A stretch of 22,242 nucleotides of DNA. Source: a virus. The position numbers were made by a program, and so were the translations under genes. Below the pieces are notes generated by a model, which was not told the origin of the DNA, made no database searches, and was given only the letters and a program-made list of their open reading frames with translations. This document shows positions 15,035 through 22,242 of this stretch, in pieces (the first letter of the stretch is position 1; every line of letters starts with the position of its first letter). The DNA is taken from positions 1 to 22,242 of IMG/VR virus record IMGVR_UViG_3300025057_000049; one strand, 5' to 3'.

Positions 15035-15651
15035 ATAAATTCAAAGAATTAAGTTTAGAAGATTTAGTGGAGTTTCGCGATCACGGCGATATGACAAACG
15101 CACCTGCAGAAGTTTTAGCCTATGCGTTAGAACTGGAAAAGGTGCACGGTATGCACTTACGTATTAAGGATTATGGTAGCAGAGATGCTATTATTAATCA
15201 TCTCACAAAATTTAATGGGTACTCCAATTATCTGGCTGCAAAGTTGCACGATGAAATGCTAGAGTATTTCTATGGTGATAGGACTATTAGTAAAAACGCA
15301 CATCGTTATCGCTTGGCAGACCTTATGGAAAAAGGGATAAATACAGCTTTGGTTTTAGCTAAGGATGCAAAAGAAGTTATAGCAGCCATTAAAGAAATTA
15401 AGAGTGTTGCCCAAGTATTACAATTAGATCAAACAGATGGGCAAGAGTTTCCGTCTGAGCTGTTAGCTAAACCAGTAAAATTATACACTAGTAATGCAGA
15501 GGCATTAGGTATGATGCCAATGGATAGGTATAAATTGGGCACTTTTATAGACGAATTAGAGGGCTTGACTGAAGCTCAAAAAATTATGGCAAAGCGTGAT
15601 TCTATGTTATTGCCAGTTAAATTTTTCCAAGATGATAGACCTAGGGAATAA
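15028..15651 (+). CDS. Terminase-associated phage protein, unknown family
   Basis: A 207-aa helical protein translated from an ATG that overlaps the small-terminase-like gene and extending 20 bases into the large terminase frame, so the three are probably translationally coupled. Contents include SRDAIINHLTKFNGYSNYLAAKLHDEMLEYFYGD and a C-terminal part with MPMDRYKLGTFIDELEGLTEAQKIMAKRDSMLLPVKFFQDD. It has no recognised catalytic motif. The position suggests a packaging accessory, possibly contributing to DNA recognition with the 109-aa HTH protein. Confidence 0.6.
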   Translation: MLNKFKELSLEDLVEFRDHGDMTNAPAEVLAYALELEKVHGMHLRIKDYGSRDAIINHLTKFNGYSNYLAAKLHDEMLEYFYGDRTISKNAHRYRLADLMEKGINTALVLAKDAKEVIAAIKEIKSVAQVLQLDQTDGQEFPSELLAKPVKLYTSNAEALGMMPMDRYKLGTFIDELEGLTEAQKIMAKRDSMLLPVKFFQDDRPRE

Positions 15652-17326
15652 TAATGTAGAGGGTCGTTATGCCTCTTGGCTTAAGCAAGGGATAGATTTT
15701 ATTTCACCTAAAAATTTACACCTTGTCTCCGGTCGTGGTACTGCAAAATCTACAGATATCCTGGCAGATAGAAGTATTGATATTTGTTATGATATGCCAC
15801 GAGCTATGTTCGCCCTGGTAAGTGATACGTATGTAAATGCACTTACCAATATTGTTCCCAAGATAATTGAAGGGTGGAGAGAGCGTAAAGGTTGGATAGA
15901 AGGAGTGCATTATGTAACAGATGAGCGTCCTCCAGACCACTTTAATATTCCGTATTCACCAATTCTAAATTACAAGCATACCATATCCATACATAACGGT
16001 TGTTTTTTTAATATTGGAAGTATGGACCAAGTATCATCTTTAGCAGGTAACTCATACCAGCATATATTTGGTGATGAAGCAAAATATCTTAATCCAAACA
16101 AGCTGAAGAAATTAATGCCCGCAAGGCGTGGTTTTCCAGAAGTGGCTCATAGTATATACTATCGTGGCTTAACTTTTACCACAGATATGCCAAATGTTAC
16201 TGAAGGCGATTTTGATTGGATTCTAGACAATGAAAAAAATATGGATATCGAGAAAATAAAACTTGCACTAAGAGCAGGTTCTGTTTTAAATGAGATACGT
16301 CATGAGTTTTATGAGGCTTGCAGAAAAAAAGCACCGCAACATAAAATAGATCTTATACAAAAAAATTATACCCGATGGTATATGAAGTGGATGCAGACAC
16401 GTGTGGATAGTACCCTCTTCTATATTGCATCGTCCTTCGTAAATGCAGACATTCTTCAGGCGGGTTACTATAAAGACGTTCTGGAGAGTGACGGCATTGA
16501 AGAGTTTAAAGCATCTATTTTATCGTTACGCCCTAATGTAAAAAAAGGAGAAAAATTTTACGGTAACCTGGGCGATCATCATTTTTATAGTGATGGTGTA
16601 AATAATCAATACTATATAGATAATTATGGTTTAAATGATGCTATAACACCAACTAGCTACGCTTTAAATCGTTGTAATGCTAAATTCCCATTAGATTGTG
16701 GGATAGATTTTGGAGATATGACGAGTATGGTAATAGGGCAGGATGCAAGACGTTATTATAACGTTTTAAAGAACTTTTATACACTTGCTCCGCAAAGTAG
16801 TAAAGAGCTCGCAAAACAATTCCTAGACTTTTTTGAGCCACATCGTCGTAAGGTTTTAAATATGTATTATGACAGGGCAGGTAATCAATACAAAAAAATT
16901 AAAAGAGATTGGGCCACAGAAATTAAAGACCATATTGAAAATTATGAAGGAAAAAGTACGGGTTGGAAAGTAAATTTAATGAGTGAAGGTCAAGGTGATA
17001 TTTATCACGAGCAGGAATTTAACTTTATGAAAAAATTTATGGGAGATTATTACGAAGGATTGCCTCAGCTTCGTATAGACGAGCTCCAATGTAGAGAGCT
17101 GAAAAGCAGCTTAAGTTTAGCAAAAATTAAAATGTCTAAAGACAGAAACGGAAGTATGCGCCTCCAGAAAGATAAAAGCTCAGAAAAGTTACCACTTAGA
17201 AAATTGCCGATGTATAGTACAAATTTTAGTGATGCCTTTAAATATTTAATGTATAGGCCTAAATGGGTTAAGCTCAGTGAACGAAGATTGCCGCAACAGT
17301 GGAGTGAACCAGTTATTGTTGGATAA
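15632..17326 (+). CDS. terL: Phage terminase large subunit
   Basis: A 564-aa packaging motor and nuclease. Walker A is GRGTAKS (34-40), Walker B IFGDEA (145-150), and the adenine-binding region lies before them. The RNase H-like nuclease domain shows its three acidic positions at GIDFGD (D359), YYDRAG (D414) and FSDAFKY (D534). The protein hydrolyses ATP to pump DNA into the prohead through the portal and cuts concatemers. The start at 15632 (MIDLGNN) is preferred to an in-frame ATG at 15596 because the extra 12 residues (Cys-rich, unlike a terminase) overlap the upstream gene more. The portal gene, usually next, is here 3.5 kb away beyond an inverted block. Confidence 0.92.
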   Translation: MIDLGNNNVEGRYASWLKQGIDFISPKNLHLVSGRGTAKSTDILADRSIDICYDMPRAMFALVSDTYVNALTNIVPKIIEGWRERKGWIEGVHYVTDERPPDHFNIPYSPILNYKHTISIHNGCFFNIGSMDQVSSLAGNSYQHIFGDEAKYLNPNKLKKLMPARRGFPEVAHSIYYRGLTFTTDMPNVTEGDFDWILDNEKNMDIEKIKLALRAGSVLNEIRHEFYEACRKKAPQHKIDLIQKNYTRWYMKWMQTRVDSTLFYIASSFVNADILQAGYYKDVLESDGIEEFKASILSLRPNVKKGEKFYGNLGDHHFYSDGVNNQYYIDNYGLNDAITPTSYALNRCNAKFPLDCGIDFGDMTSMVIGQDARRYYNVLKNFYTLAPQSSKELAKQFLDFFEPHRRKVLNMYYDRAGNQYKKIKRDWATEIKDHIENYEGKSTGWKVNLMSEGQGDIYHEQEFNFMKKFMGDYYEGLPQLRIDELQCRELKSSLSLAKIKMSKDRNGSMRLQKDKSSEKLPLRKLPMYSTNFSDAFKYLMYRPKWVKLSERRLPQQWSEPVIVG

Positions 17327-17354
17327 TCTTTATCTTAGCAATAAAATTTATCAA

Positions 17355-17597
17355 ATGAAACTAAAGGGTATTGAGTTTGAGTACGAAACTAAATGCAGAA
17401 GATGTGGAGAAATTCATTCTTGGTTTGGAGGTAACGAATATAAAGTAGATGATAAGCCAATAGATACTTCTTTAATTCAATTCCTAAATCACATGCAGGA
17501 GAAAATTCAATATGCAAAAACATATAGTTGCAATACTTGTAATCGTTCGACAGTACAAGAAATAGTTTCTTATACTCCAGATCATAACGTTTATTAA
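17355..17597 (+). CDS. Small zinc-ribbon protein (80 aa)
   Basis: A product of 80 aa with two CxxC knuckles, CRRC (about residues 13-16) and CNTC (about 61-64), spaced about 45 residues apart as in a zinc ribbon. The ATG at 17355 is chosen over a frame start at 17277 that would overlap the terminase end by 50 bases. The latter adds 26 residues without motif. It would be the last plus-strand gene of unit 4 and converges with the minus-strand block, leaving 23 bases between stops. Zinc ribbons of this kind often bind DNA or other proteins. Function unknown. Confidence 0.6.
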   Translation: MKLKGIEFEYETKCRRCGEIHSWFGGNEYKVDDKPIDTSLIQFLNHMQEKIQYAKTYSCNTCNRSTVQEIVSYTPDHNVY

Positions 17598-17620
17598 TTA
17601 CAATAAAAGTTAGAATCTTC

Positions 17621-18430
17621 TTAACTGTTGTTTGCTGGTGTTATAAAAAGATAATTATTTAAATCTATCCAATAACCATTTGCAATTTTTTGATCATTAT
17701 ATGAAATATCAAACTGCAAATCTATACCTTCTTCAGGATTTGGTCTGTAATATATGTCAAGCTTCCAGTAATCTTCTACTATTATAGGTTCTTTTAAAAA
17801 TCCTAAATCAGTTAGTGCACTCAAAACTGTACAAGCTTCTATAAGTGCATAATCATTCAAATGTCCCTTAACACCTTTTGCTATCGCTGGATTCTTTGCA
17901 TTTCTGGCTAACCATTTATATATAAAATTTTCAGTTTTGTATCGAAGTTCAAATTCATTGTTTGTGGATCTATCGATATTTTTGAAAGAAATGTGGTTTT
18001 CATTTGTTGTAATTTGCCTGTTAGTTCTCATTTCTTCTAATAAGATATCCTTATTTTCCTCACGCATTTTGTCAAGTTCAACTTGCAGCTTTTCCAAATG
18101 CCTTTTTATTTCAGGGTCTTCAGATAGTATTCTGGGTTTGTATTCACCTTCCTCTAATATTTCATCTATAGGAATCCAGGATTTTTTTTCTTCAGGTGTT
18201 ATAGGTTCCTCTCCTGGTTCGGTTGGTGCCAAAGTGTGTATAAATGAATTACCTCGTAGTGAAGTCTTTGAATTAATATTTTGAGGTATTTTTATAAAAG
18301 AACCATTTTCAAATTTAAAATCACCTTTCATTGTCCTAGCTATAAGTATAGCATCACCACTTTTCTTATACAGCTCATTTAACTCGGTATTAAGCCTATT
18401 TACGTCAATATTATTTTTGTTGGCACTCAT
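17621..18430 (-). CDS. Unrecognised 269-aa protein at the end of the inverted block
   Basis: A 269-aa soluble protein. The start is set at the ATG at 18430, since a TATATTTG -7 element lies at 18453-18446 and would exclude a longer version beginning with TTG at 18448. The N-terminal third is polar and mixed alpha/beta. Residues about 68-90 are Pro/Glu-rich (LAPTEPGEEPITPEEKKSW). A coiled coil follows at about 105-140 (KRHLEKLQVELDKMREENKDILLEEMR). A folded C-terminal part contains YKWLARNAKNPAIAKGVKGHLNDYALIEACTVLSALTDLG. No enzyme motif is seen. It has its own promoter and lies behind a strong hairpin, so it need not be co-transcribed with the methylase-like gene. Confidence 0.6.
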   Translation of the reverse strand: MSANKNNIDVNRLNTELNELYKKSGDAILIARTMKGDFKFENGSFIKIPQNINSKTSLRGNSFIHTLAPTEPGEEPITPEEKKSWIPIDEILEEGEYKPRILSEDPEIKRHLEKLQVELDKMREENKDILLEEMRTNRQITTNENHISFKNIDRSTNNEFELRYKTENFIYKWLARNAKNPAIAKGVKGHLNDYALIEACTVLSALTDLGFLKEPIIVEDYWKLDIYYRPNPEEGIDLQFDISYNDQKIANGYWIDLNNYLFITPANNS

Positions 18431-18445
18431 AATGAATATTTTAAG

Positions 18446-18453
18446 CAAATATA
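18446..18453 (-). promoter_or_regulatory. -7 element of a promoter for the 269-aa gene
   Basis: On the minus strand TATATTTG matches TAnnTTTG exactly. Predicted start is near 18439, about 9 bases before the ATG at 18430. No clear TTG at -33 is seen. The CATGTCACA motif is absent, so the gene is not under the late promoter class. Confidence 0.45.
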
Positions 18454-18475
18454 CTTATAATTGGATTTGGTAGGT

Positions 18476-18503
18476 AAATTTCGCCCGCTAGGGCGAAATT
18501 TTT
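18476..18503 (-). terminator. Long hairpin between methylase-like gene and 269-aa gene
   Basis: AAATTTCGCCC (18476-18486) and GGGCGAAATTT (18491-18501) are 11-bp perfect arms with a 4-base loop. The TAG stop of the methylase-like gene falls in the loop and adjoining base. The plus-strand side has five T after the stem; the minus-strand side has only a short T run within the arm. It probably ends transcription of the anti-restriction-like genes, possibly in both directions. Confidence 0.6.
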
Positions 18504-19144
18504 AAAATACACGGCGTTTCTGTTTTATAGTAGTCGTGATTTACTACATAAGTATTATAAGGCTCTGTAATTCTTAAGCTATCCATATGAAACGCATCGC
18601 ACCTAATGCCGTGAAATGCACAATTTATAACACACATCTTAATACATACATGGTCTAAATCTTGGGCAATAAATTTATTTCCCTCTGCTTGGTGGTTACT
18701 TGCTAAAATTAATCTTCCACTTCCGCAAGCAGGTTCATTTATAGTCTTACCAAAATCATTTTTTTTCTGTGTCAATTGTGCCATCATGCTGCAAATAGCT
18801 TTTGGTGTAAAAAATTGCCCAAAACCTTTTTTTTTGCTTTTCCAAGCAATTGCCTCGTAATAATCGCCTAAAGGGTCGCACCAATCGCCCACACTAATTT
18901 CTCTATCATAATACATCATTAAGCTACCTAATAATTTTGCAAAATTGTTTAACTCCTCTTTATTATAATTTTTAATTGTTTCGTGATATAGCTTTTCTTG
19001 GGTTTGTCTTGCAAGGCAACAAATAACAATTGTAAGAAAGTCATCAAAAACGCGTGATGGTTCGTGTCTATATGCTATTAATGAAAAGAGGGAATTAAAT
19101 TCCCTCAAATCATTTTGTATGTCTGTGGTTTTAACTACTTGCAT
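18488..19144 (-). CDS. N6-adenine methylase-like protein lacking the catalytic NPPY/F motif
   Basis: A 218-aa protein related to the HsdM / N6-adenine methylase fold. It has DWCDPLGDYYEAI (87-99), GQFFTP (109-114) and the SAM-binding motif I NEPACGSGRL (136-145), with a likely motif II acid at D162 or D164. After MDSL (187-190), where the catalytic N/D-P-P-Y/F should follow, the sequence reads TEPYNTYVVNHDYYKTET, without the motif. HsdM proteins are about 500 aa, so only the front half of the fold is present. It could bind SAM or DNA without methylating. It overlaps the ArdC-N gene by 14 bases, pointing to a joint role. Such truncated proteins occur repeatedly in Bacteroidetes mobile elements, so recent decay is not the only reading. 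Confidence 0.75.
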   Translation of the reverse strand: MQVVKTTDIQNDLREFNSLFSLIAYRHEPSRVFDDFLTIVICCLARQTQEKLYHETIKNYNKEELNNFAKLLGSLMMYYDREISVGDWCDPLGDYYEAIAWKSKKKGFGQFFTPKAICSMMAQLTQKKNDFGKTINEPACGSGRLILASNHQAEGNKFIAQDLDHVCIKMCVINCAFHGIRCDAFHMDSLRITEPYNTYVVNHDYYKTETPCILKISP

Positions 19145-19526
19145 CGCTCAATTCTCTTACTTGTGCGTTACTAAAGACAAAAGAAACAGGGTAAAACATA
19201 TTACCGTTTTCATCTTCTGCTATTGGTTCTGTGGTGCCGTCCTCTTTCTTTTCTGTTGGTTTACCCCAAACTAAAAAAGCTTTTTCACCCTTTTTAACGC
19301 ATTTTCCCTCTTTCATCCATCCCTTAAAGCTTTTAAATTCTTTGTGCTTGGGGTTTTTGTGTAGATATTCGATAATTATATCGTTAACCTTTAAAGCGTT
19401 TACGGCTTGTATTTCTGCATCATTTTTGCAATCGTGTAGTAATTGCTCCCTAATTGCTTGCGCTTTATTAGATAGGTTTTTTAAATGCTCTCTTTTTTCT
19501 TGAATAGTCTGTTTTTTAGTACTCAT
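19131..19526 (-). CDS. ArdC N-terminal-domain-like protein (anti-restriction family)
   Basis: A 131-aa protein that corresponds to the ssDNA-binding N-terminal domain of ArdC: a basic helical start (residues 1-30), then FKSFKGWMKEGKCVKKGEKAFLVWGKP (65-91), the characteristic G-W/x-x-x-G-x-x-V-x-K-G-E-K-A pattern, and FYPVSFVFSNAQVREL. Full ArdC carries a C-terminal metalloprotease-like (HExxH) domain, which is absent here; the gene ends where that domain would begin. ArdC proteins protect incoming plasmid DNA from restriction. The following methylase-like gene overlaps it by 14 bases. A protective role for phage DNA is inferred from family and neighbour. Confidence 0.7.
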   Translation of the reverse strand: MSTKKQTIQEKREHLKNLSNKAQAIREQLLHDCKNDAEIQAVNALKVNDIIIEYLHKNPKHKEFKSFKGWMKEGKCVKKGEKAFLVWGKPTEKKEDGTTEPIAEDENGNMFYPVSFVFSNAQVRELSDASS

Positions 19527-19538
19527 AATGTTTAGATT

Positions 19539-19760
19539 TTAAAATAAATAATCATCGTAATCACTTGGCAAATCTGCATTAACTACAAAGCATTCGGCAA
19601 TTGCATAGGCTACGTTAAAAGCGTTTGCACACTGCTTTTTATAATCTTTAAAATCAACCCAATTAAATGCAAAAGAAAAACCCATGTTTGACAATAATTC
19701 TTTTACTTGGTCAGACAATTTAAATGAAGTACTTTTGTGTTGAATGTTATTATTAACCAT
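19539..19760 (-). CDS. Small unknown protein (73 aa) in the anti-restriction-like block
   Basis: A 73-aa protein, MVNNNIQHKSTSFKL..., with a Phe/Ala-rich middle (MGFSFAFNWVDFKDYKKQCANAFNVAYAIAECF) and an acidic end (LPSDYDDYLF). No membrane segment is certain and no family is recognised. It lies 12 bases upstream of the ArdC-N gene and follows a hairpin. Its leader shares the 16-mer AACAAATAAATATTAT with that of the 131-aa gene upstream, so both are probably translated by the same signal. Confidence 0.6.
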   Translation of the reverse strand: MVNNNIQHKSTSFKLSDQVKELLSNMGFSFAFNWVDFKDYKKQCANAFNVAYAIAECFVVNADLPSDYDDYLF

Positions 19761-19764
19761 GATG

Positions 19765-19780
19765 ATAATATTTATTTGTT
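19765..19780 (-). repeat. Shared 16-nt leader, copy 2 (before the 73-aa gene)
   Basis: ATAATATTTATTTGTT on the plus strand (AACAAATAAATATTAT in the minus-strand leader) is identical to 20223-20238. Both copies end a few bases before an ATG. The A-rich content fits a Bacteroidetes translation enhancer in place of a Shine-Dalgarno sequence. Confidence 0.6.
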
Positions 19781-19781
19781 A

Positions 19782-19819
19782 ATCCCCTAAGTCCGTGAAA
19801 CCTAGGGGATATTTTTTTT
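19782..19819 (+). terminator. Hairpin with T run, oriented against the minus-strand block
   Basis: ATCCCCTA (19782-19789) and TAGGGGAT (19803-19810) form an 8-bp stem with a 13-base loop, followed on the plus strand by A and eight T. In that direction it is a good intrinsic terminator and would stop antisense read-through from the terminase unit. On the minus strand no T run follows, so there it may act as an attenuator or stabiliser between the 131-aa and 73-aa genes. Confidence 0.6.
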
Positions 19820-19823
19820 ATTA

Positions 19824-20219
19824 TTAGATGCTATATTTTAAAATTTCCTTTTCGCTCGCATCTAAAAACGTTTGCAATTTTTTTCCAATAACCTCTGTTA
19901 TTTCTTCAACTACTTGTGAGTTAGATATATCCATATTAAAACCTTTAGCGTTGGAAAGGGTTATTTTTTCCTTAGTTCCGTCACTACTTATGATAAATTT
20001 CTCTAATTCATCTTTTTTGTTTTGTAAAAAGGCATGTTTATCTGCCATGAGTTGAAAGTTTTGCAGTTTTTTAATTCTGCTTTCTGCGCTCGGTCTTAAC
20101 ACTTCATTCACTTTGGTACTGCTTTTCTCTACTTTAGGCGTAGTTTTTTCAGAAGTTGAACCATTTACTTTTTTTGTGCCTTTAGGCGTTGACTTTAAGT
20201 CTTTTACAACTTTTTCCAT
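19824..20219 (-). CDS. Small mobile-element protein (131 aa), first gene of the inverted operon
   Basis: A 131-aa protein with a disordered, Lys/Ser/Thr-rich start (residues 1-45), a helical part (SAESRIKKLQNFQLMADKHAFLQNKKDELEKFI) and a small C-terminal region with SSDGTKEKITLSNAKGFNMDISNSQVVEEITEVI. I associate this outline with small genes of Bacteroidetes plasmids and conjugative elements, but no function is known to me. It is the first gene behind the palindromic operator. The basic tail followed by a helical core would suit a DNA- or RNA-binding accessory, which is inference. Confidence 0.6.
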   Translation of the reverse strand: MEKVVKDLKSTPKGTKKVNGSTSEKTTPKVEKSSTKVNEVLRPSAESRIKKLQNFQLMADKHAFLQNKKDELEKFIISSDGTKEKITLSNAKGFNMDISNSQVVEEITEVIGKKLQTFLDASEKEILKYSI

Positions 20220-20246: not shown

Positions 20247-20280
20247 TAAAGATAAGAAATATTAGTCATATTGACTAATA
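20247..20280 (-). promoter_or_regulatory. Promoter with perfect palindromic operator for the inverted block
   Basis: TATTAGTCA (20260-20268) and TGACTAATA (20272-20280) are 9-bp perfect arms around TAT, a 21-bp palindrome of the size a dimeric regulator binds. On the minus strand TATCTTTA (20254-20247), one base from TAnnTTTG, lies five bases downstream. The operator therefore covers the spacer between the -7 and -33 regions, where a bound dimer would block or remodel RNA polymerase. No second copy was seen in the window and the regulator is not encoded nearby. Confidence 0.6.
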
Positions 20281-20559
20281 AATGAGCTCTAAAATGTGTT
20301 TTTTTTTAAGATTTTTTTTAATTAATCTTTCATATTATACTGTCAATGTTTTGCATATATTTTAAATATTAAAAAATATAAGTGTCTGTAATACAATCTA
20401 ATAACTATAAAAGTTTGAAAAACTTTTATGCGTGTGTTTTCTTTTGCCCGTCCCGCTGAGTTCCTTATAAGCAATTGCAGTTAATCTAAATCTATAGATA
20501 TATGACGCCCAATACCCAACCACTTATGATATAATCCTTTGTTATCCCTTGCTTTAGTT
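20281..20559. other. Gene-free control region between inverted block and portal unit
   Basis: No convincing gene is present here. It holds A/T runs near 20300-20340, a perfect hairpin at 20407-20429 (ATAAAAGTTT / AAACTTTTAT, 3-base loop) without a following T run, a palindrome ATCTATAGAT near 20490, and a relatively GC-rich stretch near 20445-20460. The hairpin and palindrome could be protein sites or parts of an untranslated RNA. Nothing further is supported. Confidence 0.4.
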
Positions 20560-20611: not shown

Positions 20612-20887
20612 ATGTCACTAACAAAGGTTTATTCCGCTTTGGAACGTATGAGAGAGTTGTCCTCTAGCAACGTTCCATTTTCATTTTCATTTTGGTCGTA
20701 CAGCGAGAAACGAGGAGAATCAAATGGATTGAAGCAAATTAACCGCGCAGTATTGCGTACTGGTTTGTCTTCTAAAATCTCAGACAAAAGTGAGATTCTT
20801 ATTGCTTATACAGATTTAGATTCAGGCAACCCTGGTTTTGCTTATTTACCACTTATACTAACATTTAATAACTGTGATTTAAAATGA
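20612..20887 (+). CDS. Small phage protein upstream of the portal gene
   Basis: A 91-aa protein (MSLTKVYSALERMRELSSSN...) with a helical start, a beta-rich middle (VPFSFSFWSYSEKRGESNGLKQINRAVLR) and an ILIAYTDLDSGNPGFAYLPLILTFNNCDLK end. Family not recognised. It is first in unit 5 and its TGA overlaps the portal ATG by four bases (ATGA), so translation is coupled and a role in portal or head-neck assembly is likely. The start is fixed by the late promoter just upstream. Confidence 0.6.
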   Translation: MSLTKVYSALERMRELSSSNVPFSFSFWSYSEKRGESNGLKQINRAVLRTGLSSKISDKSEILIAYTDLDSGNPGFAYLPLILTFNNCDLK

Positions 20888-22242
20888 GAATAGAGCACTA
20901 CGATACTGGTGGATTGATTGATTGCGGTAACGTGGCCTTTTCTTATGAGGTTACTGAAAGACCAAGAGATTTAGTTAATCAAAAAAATAAAACAGATAGT
21001 CTAGATTGGAATAGATACAACAATTTTATGATTGGAGATTATCGCATACATCCTTATGGTGATCAAAATGATTTACCTGAAAAAATAAGACAGGTAATCC
21101 AAAATCACTATATGGCTTCTTCACAGTTAACCAAGAAAACTCAAATGATGTGGGGACAAGGACCTCATTTATATAAGGAGTCGTTTAAAAATGGTTATCT
21201 GGAGAGAGAGTGGGTTAACGATAAAGATGTTTGGAATTGGATTAAATCTTGGGATGGAGAGGATTACCTAATGAGATGCTCTACAGATTGGGAACACATT
21301 AAAGGGACTTTTACTAAGTTTTACCAAGGAAGAGGTGGAAGAATAGGGAAGAATAATATTGCTAAACTAGAACATGTTTCACCTAATAAAGCTCGTTTAG
21401 CTTCTAAAATGAAGCTTACCTTTTCTAAACCAACACACGCAGTTGTTACTGATTGGGATTTTAATCACATAAATAATTTAACAGACTATAAGGCTTATAA
21501 GCTTTTTGATCATAACAATCCTTTTGCTGAACGTAATAGTATTTATTATTCTAATATGTACAGTTTTGCAACAGACTACTATACTGTTCCAGATTTGTAT
21601 GGGTCATTAGAGTGGTTAAGGCGCTCTACAGCTATTCCTTATATATTTAAGGCCTTGAGTGATAACTCGATGAATGTTAAATATCATTTACAATCACCTT
21701 CTTCTTTTTGGGATTCAAAACGTTCACAAATAAAAGATGAGTGCCACCAAAAAAACAAAGAATACAACGAAGCTCTCTTTGTAGCCTACCAAAAGAATTT
21801 TCTTAAAAAAGTTGCTGAAGTTTTATCAGGTCAAGAAAATGTTGGGAAATTCTGGCATTCTGAAAAGATGATAAATGTAGATGGTCAAGATATAAAAGAA
21901 CACGGTTGGGAATTAAAACCAATAGATCAAAACGTTAAGGACTTTATAGACGCGCACATTAAACTTTCAGATAAAGCAGATCGTGTTATAGCGAGCACAT
22001 TTGGTTTACATCCATCTCTAGGTAACGTAAGTGCAAATGGAAATTCCGATAGTGGTAGTGAACAAGGCTATGCTTTTAAAAATTACATAAACTCAGGCGT
22101 AGACATTCCAGAAATGATAGTCTGTAAACCTCTTAATTATGCTCTTATGGCCAATTATCCAACCAAGGGTTTAAAGATTGGTTTTTACAGAACAGTAACA
22201 AAGTTAGAGAGTGAAACTACTCCAGCTAAACGATTAATAAAT
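20884..22242 (+). CDS. Phage portal protein, 5' part, continues beyond the window
   Basis: The first 453 codons are open to the window edge. Portal-like features are an N-terminal arm with IGDYRIHPYGDQNDLPEKIRQVIQNHYMASSQLTKKTQMMWGQGP, a wing region with repeated aromatic residues, and DAHIKLSDKADRVIASTFGLHPSLGNVSANGNSDSGSEQGYAFKNYI at about 357-403, matching the 'K-x-x-x-x-I-x-x-x-F-G-hydrophobic-P ... G-x-G-S' pattern of portals. Portals form the dodecameric DNA channel at the capsid vertex, on which the terminase docks. Usually the gene follows the large terminase directly; here the inverted block separates them. The stop codon and the tail genes expected downstream are outside the window. 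Confidence 0.8.
   Translation, partial: MRIEHYDTGGLIDCGNVAFSYEVTERPRDLVNQKNKTDSLDWNRYNNFMIGDYRIHPYGDQNDLPEKIRQVIQNHYMASSQLTKKTQMMWGQGPHLYKESFKNGYLEREWVNDKDVWNWIKSWDGEDYLMRCSTDWEHIKGTFTKFYQGRGGRIGKNNIAKLEHVSPNKARLASKMKLTFSKPTHAVVTDWDFNHINNLTDYKAYKLFDHNNPFAERNSIYYSNMYSFATDYYTVPDLYGSLEWLRRSTAIPYIFKALSDNSMNVKYHLQSPSSFWDSKRSQIKDECHQKNKEYNEALFVAYQKNFLKKVAEVLSGQENVGKFWHSEKMINVDGQDIKEHGWELKPIDQNVKDFIDAHIKLSDKADRVIASTFGLHPSLGNVSANGNSDSGSEQGYAFKNYINSGVDIPEMIVCKPLNYALMANYPTKGLKIGFYRTVTKLESETTPAKRLIN

Follow-up and report, generated by a model that had tools for sequence, protein, structure and literature searches.

The inverted gene block located between the terminase and portal genes of the viral record IMGVR_UViG_3300025057_000049 (IMG/VR), a linear fragment of 22,242 bp that was analyzed whole and is referred to below as the window, probably serves a temperate phage of the Duneviridae type as an operon for counter-restriction (establishment). 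From the comparison of sequences, we infer that this operon would be expressed when the phage DNA enters a cell, act against restriction, and be switched off by an Aca-like repressor encoded in trans, the small protein gp15. The operon consists of four genes, p5-p4-p3-p2 (18488 to 20219), all on the minus strand. Its left border is the plus-strand gene for the large terminase (15596 to 17326); the right border (20612 to 22242) is formed by plus-strand genes for a 91-amino-acid (91-aa) adaptor-like protein (20612 to 20887) and for the portal (20884 to the end of the window, which cuts it). An earlier note on this stretch had described such an inverted block, with ArdC-N and methylase-like genes in it, and both observations were borne out.

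Paired operators and the gp15 protein

The promoter of the block carries a palindromic operator, TTAGTCATATTGACTAA (20262 to 20278), a perfect 7+3+7 palindrome that sits just upstream of the -7 box TATCTTTA (20247 to 20254, minus strand), which is of the Bacteroidota type (TAnnTTTG-like) and is conserved in relatives. Only four GC-containing palindromes of this kind are found in the whole window. The block had previously been credited with an operator of its own and, tentatively, with control apart from the late genes; the palindrome agrees with the former and, as a dedicated operator, supports the latter.

In relatives of the window phage, a second copy of the operator is located ~4.7 kb downstream, upstream of gp15 (laban naming), as seen in 11 relatives with a defined operator whose records were searched whole. 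This gene encodes a protein of 60 to 90 aa and lies between the tail genes gp16 and gp14, on the strand opposite to the block. A copy matching TTAGTCATATTGACTAA precedes gp15 in G001, an isolate prophage that is the closest relative of the window phage (~88% nucleotide identity). The operator sequence is lineage specific (TTCCGTA..TACGGAA, GTCGTA..TACGAC, TTAGTC..GACTAA, TTGCGT..ACGCA, and others), and the two copies co-vary: across 29 loci, the mean score was 17.7 for own pairs versus 13.0 ± 0.45 for permuted ones (0/20,000 permutations), in a set without the operators of G011 and G012, which were not recovered. Matched operator pairs were also present in the held-out prophages L289, L291, L292, and L295 and in the ArdA-bearing L099, and, weakly, in L290. 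In many relatives, the palindrome of the block promoter and that of the gp15 promoter adjoin or overlap the -7 box, and a -33/-7 promoter overlapping the gp15 palindrome was detected in 8 of the 29 loci, versus 0.14 expected.

Of the genes tested, gp15 is the best predictor of the operator: similarity between gp15 sequences predicts similarity between operators with a Spearman coefficient of 0.77, and the partial correlation is 0.53 given gp14, gp16, the portal, p5, and p4 (Mantel test, 0/2000). Neither p5 nor p4 shows a partial correlation with the operator, and both were rejected as its regulators. Sharing of the operator with the main phage repressor was likewise rejected, as the search of complete relatives found no other close copy near an early region and the copy at gp15 alone was recurrent.

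The distribution of gp15 follows that of p5. It is present in 33 of the 34 p5-bearing phages, and the full classification (33 loci with both genes, 1 with p5 alone, 3 with gp15 alone, and 12 with neither; Fisher's exact test, P = 6e-8) was made by hand and includes some near-identical p5-bearing loci, such as L118 to L120. The three gp15-bearing exceptions without p5 have blocks with another head. Phages that lack the block mostly join gp16 to gp14 directly, with a gap of 17 bp or less and no gp15, which argues that the tail genes do not need this protein. This observation bears on an alternative in which gp15 would chiefly set the timing of the late tail genes, with a secondary role for the operator of the block; the location of the second operator between gp16 and gp14, overlapping a promoter in 8 of the 29 loci, speaks for that alternative, which nevertheless appears very unlikely.

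The structural model of gp15 (pLDDT of 94.7) has four helices, consistent with a helix-turn-helix (HTH) protein, and among solved structures it is closest to XRE regulators, AcrIIA15, HipB, and Aca2. Foldseek found no significant match to gp15, searches of Pfam returned only scattered weak HTH matches (single members, HTH_23/HTH_26), and there was none in NCBIfam. Since the operators co-vary, gp15 predicts them and co-occurs with the block, and its model is HTH-like, gp15 is a likely repressor of itself and of the block and most likely acts by binding the paired operators.

Distribution of the block in related phages

The window phage belongs to the Duneviridae type by its terminase and portal, each of which is 51 to 52% identical to its counterpart in Flavobacterium phage laban6-1 (Duneviridae); identity to phages 6H/2A/FPSV is 50% for the terminase and 42% for the portal. 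Both proteins also match those of Cellulophaga phage Ingeline, Bacteroides BT-TP2, and Porphyromonas prophages. Scanning viral contigs for the terminase yielded 41 loci with both borders, most of which contain a minus-strand block with p5 and p4 heading its portal side and SymE often coming next. An inverted block occupies the same place in laban6-1 (gp22 to gp27), 6H (gp14 to gp18), and FPSV-F7, and block-bearing prophages were found in Leeuwenhoekiella, Maribacter, Pustulibacterium, and Flavobacterium. The genes that follow p5/p4 (SymE) form a swappable tail, which comprises ArdC-N and methyltransferase (MTase)-like genes, RadC/JAB, DUF932, or DUF6943. The presence of ArdA, RadC, DUF932, and SymE in the blocks was confirmed by Pfam, and the head of the L099 block is a true ArdA (PF07275; 53.2 bits, cutoff of 27).

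The earlier suggestion that the block is cargo, if this means an insertion acquired now and then, does not fit the close relatives, most of which have it at the same place and in the same orientation, usually headed by p5/p4 and with a swappable tail. A terminase-portal junction without the block, for which a comparison with related prophages had been proposed, does exist in Ingeline, L084, Muricauda L300, and Christiangramia L332. Of these, L084, L300, and L332 keep the cos-like element described below; in Ingeline, the core of this element is visible in isolate Ingeline_8.

Further genes, on either strand, can be found between the terminase and the block. In L035, L049, L055, L062, and L072, the plus strand of this gap contains genes that by eye look helicase-like, PAPS-reductase-like, ParB-like, or HTH. 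In L127, the gene after the terminase (7276 to 8103) has by eye the look of a D12-class adenine methylase; it has no Pfam match. The lineage that includes L021 to L024 and L108 lacks p5 and gp15; it carries p4 and RadC, and the small HTH gene beside its terminase is a different one, a possible replacement of the regulator. No convincing shared palindromes were found in the gp15-less blocks of L061, L024, L127, and L294.

Products of the block genes

The first gene of the operon, p5 (19824 to 20219, minus strand), is the usual head of the block in relatives. Its 131-aa product is predicted to consist of a disordered N terminus and a helical hairpin resembling prefoldin beta (Z score of 9.2, root mean square deviation of 2.7 over 90 residues, TM score of ~0.5). 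This likeness to a chaperone is one of shape only and may be no more than a common coiled-coil arrangement; Foldseek found no significant match to p5. The second gene, p4 (19539 to 19760, minus strand), encodes a 73-aa protein of phrog_21262 and is kept in nearly all blocks.

The third gene, p3 (19131 to 19526, minus strand), codes for a stand-alone ArdC-N (single-stranded DNA [ssDNA]-binding) domain (PF08401), which ends at 131 aa, so that the C-terminal metalloprotease domain of ArdC is missing. The 218-aa product of p2 (18488 to 19144, minus strand) is similar to HsdM and other N6-methyltransferases (PF02384 [N6_Mtase], E value of 4e-15). Its S-adenosylmethionine (SAM)-binding motif I is intact (NEPACGSG; NEPxxGSGR across 13 aligned members). 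The catalytic motif IV ([DN]PP[FYW]; NPP[FY]) is replaced by an N-x-x-[FYW]-type sequence in the 13 phage members and is also absent from five plasmid homologs. A short "N-6 DNA methylase" family with motif I and GQFFTP and without motif IV is widespread on phages and plasmids; the p2-type family (the window gene and L186 to L190) has matches in 1,654 plasmid records. Proteins of this motif IV-less type could be HsdM mimics or SAM binders.

Plasmid relatives of p2 have psiB/psiA, ssb, JAB, and DUF932 genes as neighbors. The idea that the same block might occur on plasmids held for the p2-type genes and failed for p5, for which tblastn found no match on phages or plasmids. As for the protection of DNA or of the lysogen, both of which the earlier note had considered, the gene families (ArdC-N, RadC, DUF932, and ArdA) and the plasmid neighbors favor the former; protection of the lysogen is less likely than that of incoming DNA, given that the genes are laid out as an operon with its own repressor.

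The same gene content could belong to an operon that supports DNA establishment or replication through ssDNA binding, recombination, or nucleotide processing and has no part in counter-defense. ArdC-N binds ssDNA, RadC/JAB may process nucleic acids (PMC5512222), p5 and p4 have no assigned function, and ssb is among the plasmid neighbors of the p2 relatives. However, unlike core replication genes, the tails are exchanged freely, the blocks of L013 to L016 contain nothing beyond p5/p4, and Ingeline, L084, L300, and L332 do without the block; the true ArdA of L099 also speaks against this role, which we consider rather unlikely.

A cos-like element at the portal side of the block

The region between the block and the portal contains a cosN candidate, CCGTCCCGCT (20448 to 20457, plus strand), and, at a fixed spacing from this core, a conserved cos-associated motif, AGATATATGA (20496 to 20505, plus strand). 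The consensus CCGnCnCGCT is common to 49 nonredundant sites between p5 and the adaptor gene (2.3 bits per column), in which AGAnATATGA follows ~48 bases from the start of the core. Several assemblies end at this element. Five separately assembled records of Ingeline isolates open within the core, and only the circular Ingeline_8 reads across it; L009 and L010, which represent one phage in different metagenomes, share the same end base at about the expected start of the core; and the phage record FPSV-D35 (MK764450) has one end 8 bases from the core. This record, labeled complete and circular, is without terminase and block and is probably incomplete. Contig L051 ends one base past its core; taken by itself, this case could be chance among ~40 contigs. 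A scan of viral contigs for the whole cos pattern found none starting at the core, in line with what loss of the overhang would produce.

Because the assembly ends of several relatives coincide with the core, the element is probably cos. If so, the block and the portal genes would lie at opposite ends of linear virion DNA, and the block promoter would probably lie ~200 bp from the tip, pointing inward. The possibility that CCGnCnCGCT is instead an origin, a pac site, or a regulatory site, with the terminal position of the block being coincidental, has to be weighed here, since no termini experiment for any Duneviridae phage was found in the open-access literature and PhageTerm left Ingeline undetermined (PMC8776804). 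Such an explanation seems quite unlikely given that the same 10 to 11 bases, or positions beside them, are where assemblies of different origin break off. In addition, the more distant relative Leef (Helgolandviridae), with predicted 3' cos ends (PMC8776804), has a record that also opens between the terminase and the portal-side genes. Side-biased conservation, considered as an indicator of the packaging direction, did not decide it, as the flanks are symmetrical (see below). The order terminase-cos-portal would be an unusual place for cos in Bacteroidota phages.

Proposed mode of action and relation to known systems

Upon entry into a naive cell, which contains no gp15, the block would be transcribed at once, and its products (ArdC-N and HsdM-like proteins in the window phage; ArdA, RadC, or DUF932 in others) could shield the incoming DNA from restriction. 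As the autoregulated gp15 builds up, the block would be silenced, and gp15 would hold it silent in the lysogen and during late infection, a stage at which transcription running counter to the late genes would be harmful.

The opposite timing is implied by a view of the block as lysogen-borne defense or superinfection-exclusion cargo, expressed from the prophage against other phages like the genes of the P2 cos-adjacent old/tin hotspot. The cos-adjacent place and variable content do recall the P2/P4 hotspots, where variable genes likewise lie beside cos and portal in temperate phages (PMC9122126), and laban6-1 lysogens resist laban6-1 (PMC7077304). However, those hotspots hold anti-phage defense systems, whereas the block has a usual head, anti-restriction-type content (ArdA, ArdC-N, DUF932, and RadC), and a co-evolving dedicated repressor. 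PADLOC found no defense system in the block, with hits of p2 to MTase-type models only and a marginal one of p5. Silence of the block in lysogens is predicted because the gene for the repressor is itself in the prophage. Defense cargo is for these reasons unlikely.

A counter-restriction operon under gp15 control would most resemble the acr-aca operons, which are also counter-defense-type operons of temperate phages with an inverted repeat inside the core promoter and a small HTH autoregulator (gp15 being HTH-like and of 60 to 90 aa) whose operator specificity tracks the regulator (PMC9410906). There, repression is needed for phage replication, and solo aca genes possibly acting in trans have been suggested (PMC9410906). 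The differences are that gp15 is encoded outside the operon, ~4.7 kb away among tail genes on the other strand and with its own promoter, and that the targets of the block look like restriction rather than CRISPR. The anti-defense islands in plasmid leading regions share with the block a repertoire of MTase-like, Ard, ssb-, psiB-, and DUF932-type genes and expected expression upon entry into a naive cell (PMC11541004), but they enter as ssDNA from oriT, in contrast to double-stranded phage DNA with a cos end, and the block has a conventional promoter with a repressor and the p5 gene, not found on plasmids. ArdC- and DarB-type polyvalent proteins combine ArdC-N and MTase-like domains around DNA entry (PMC5512222), whereas p3 and p2 are separate small proteins without protease or helicase domains and, in p2, without motif IV.

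Gene 0.3 of phage T7, which codes for Ocr, is a first-entering anti-restriction gene near the tip of virion DNA. The block would similarly place anti-restriction-type genes near such a tip, at one cos end, but in a temperate phage and under repressor control.

Several observations weigh against the counter-restriction reading. The match of p3 to PF08401 (23.5 bits) is barely above the cutoff (22.6), the loss of motif IV means that p2 is perhaps nonmethylating and that the "methylase" label may be misleading, and p5, p4, and SymE have no known anti-defense role. The fold matches of gp15 are weak (Z scores of 6.0 or less, the best being with XRE regulators, and 2.4 for Aca2), L061 has a block and lacks gp15, and the window stops inside the portal gene, so that the position of gp15 lies beyond it and this protein was studied in relatives. 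In L053 / G011, the one case found in which p5 does not adjoin the portal-side intergenic region, 4.7 kb separate p5 from the portal. Finally, the two flanks of cos are equally conserved (0.45 versus 0.44 bits), which gives no support to entry of the block end first.

Terminators, a recent insertion, and other genes

The operon ends at a strong bidirectional hairpin terminator, AAATTTCGCCCGCTAGGGCGAAATTT (18476 to 18501), which in G001 lies a few bases past the terminase stop codon. Between p4 and p5, there is a terminator-like hairpin with a T-run (19782 to 19819, plus strand; z = -2.5), as previously described, which would halt late read-through toward the portal.

Directly after the terminase stop codon, the window has an insertion of ~1.13 kb (17327 to 18460, the right boundary being approximate), which is recent and absent from G001. 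It holds the 269-aa gene p1 (17621 to 18430, minus strand), which probably starts at ATG 18430 rather than at TTG 18448, and an 80-aa open reading frame with a CxxC...CxxC pattern (17355 to 17597, plus strand). No relatives of p1 were found in families or phages. With its absence from G001, its own promoter (-7 box TATATTTG), and its position beyond the terminator, p1 was rejected as an operon member. The five inverted genes originally taken as a single unit are all present; since G001 lacks the insertion, they represent a four-gene operon and a separate recent insertion, and the slot at the terminase side suits the term cargo better than the operon does. The surrounding genes, earlier taken to be all on the plus strand, include two on the minus strand at the left edge of the window (169 to 1889), one of them with a DUF5677 domain, which are likely further cargo.

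Implications

The new elements are the cos-like element at the ends of assemblies and the operator pair that co-varies with gp15. We tentatively suggest that they are parts of one arrangement, possible rather than probable as a whole, in which the operon occupies the end of virion DNA that enters first, its repression is lifted only in cells where gp15 is absent, and tiny trans-acting repressors of a new family, co-evolving with paired operators, provide both a timer and superinfection-type specificity for counter-defense expression across an entire family of phages. An odd inverted block would in this way become a testable regulatory circuit across the phages of Flavobacteriia. The swappable tail (ArdA, ArdC-N, RadC, DUF932, DUF6943, and MTase-like genes) would offer a fixed address for finding uncharacterized counter-defense genes, and the gp15 operator may serve as a sequence handle for such operons in phages without any known anti-defense gene.

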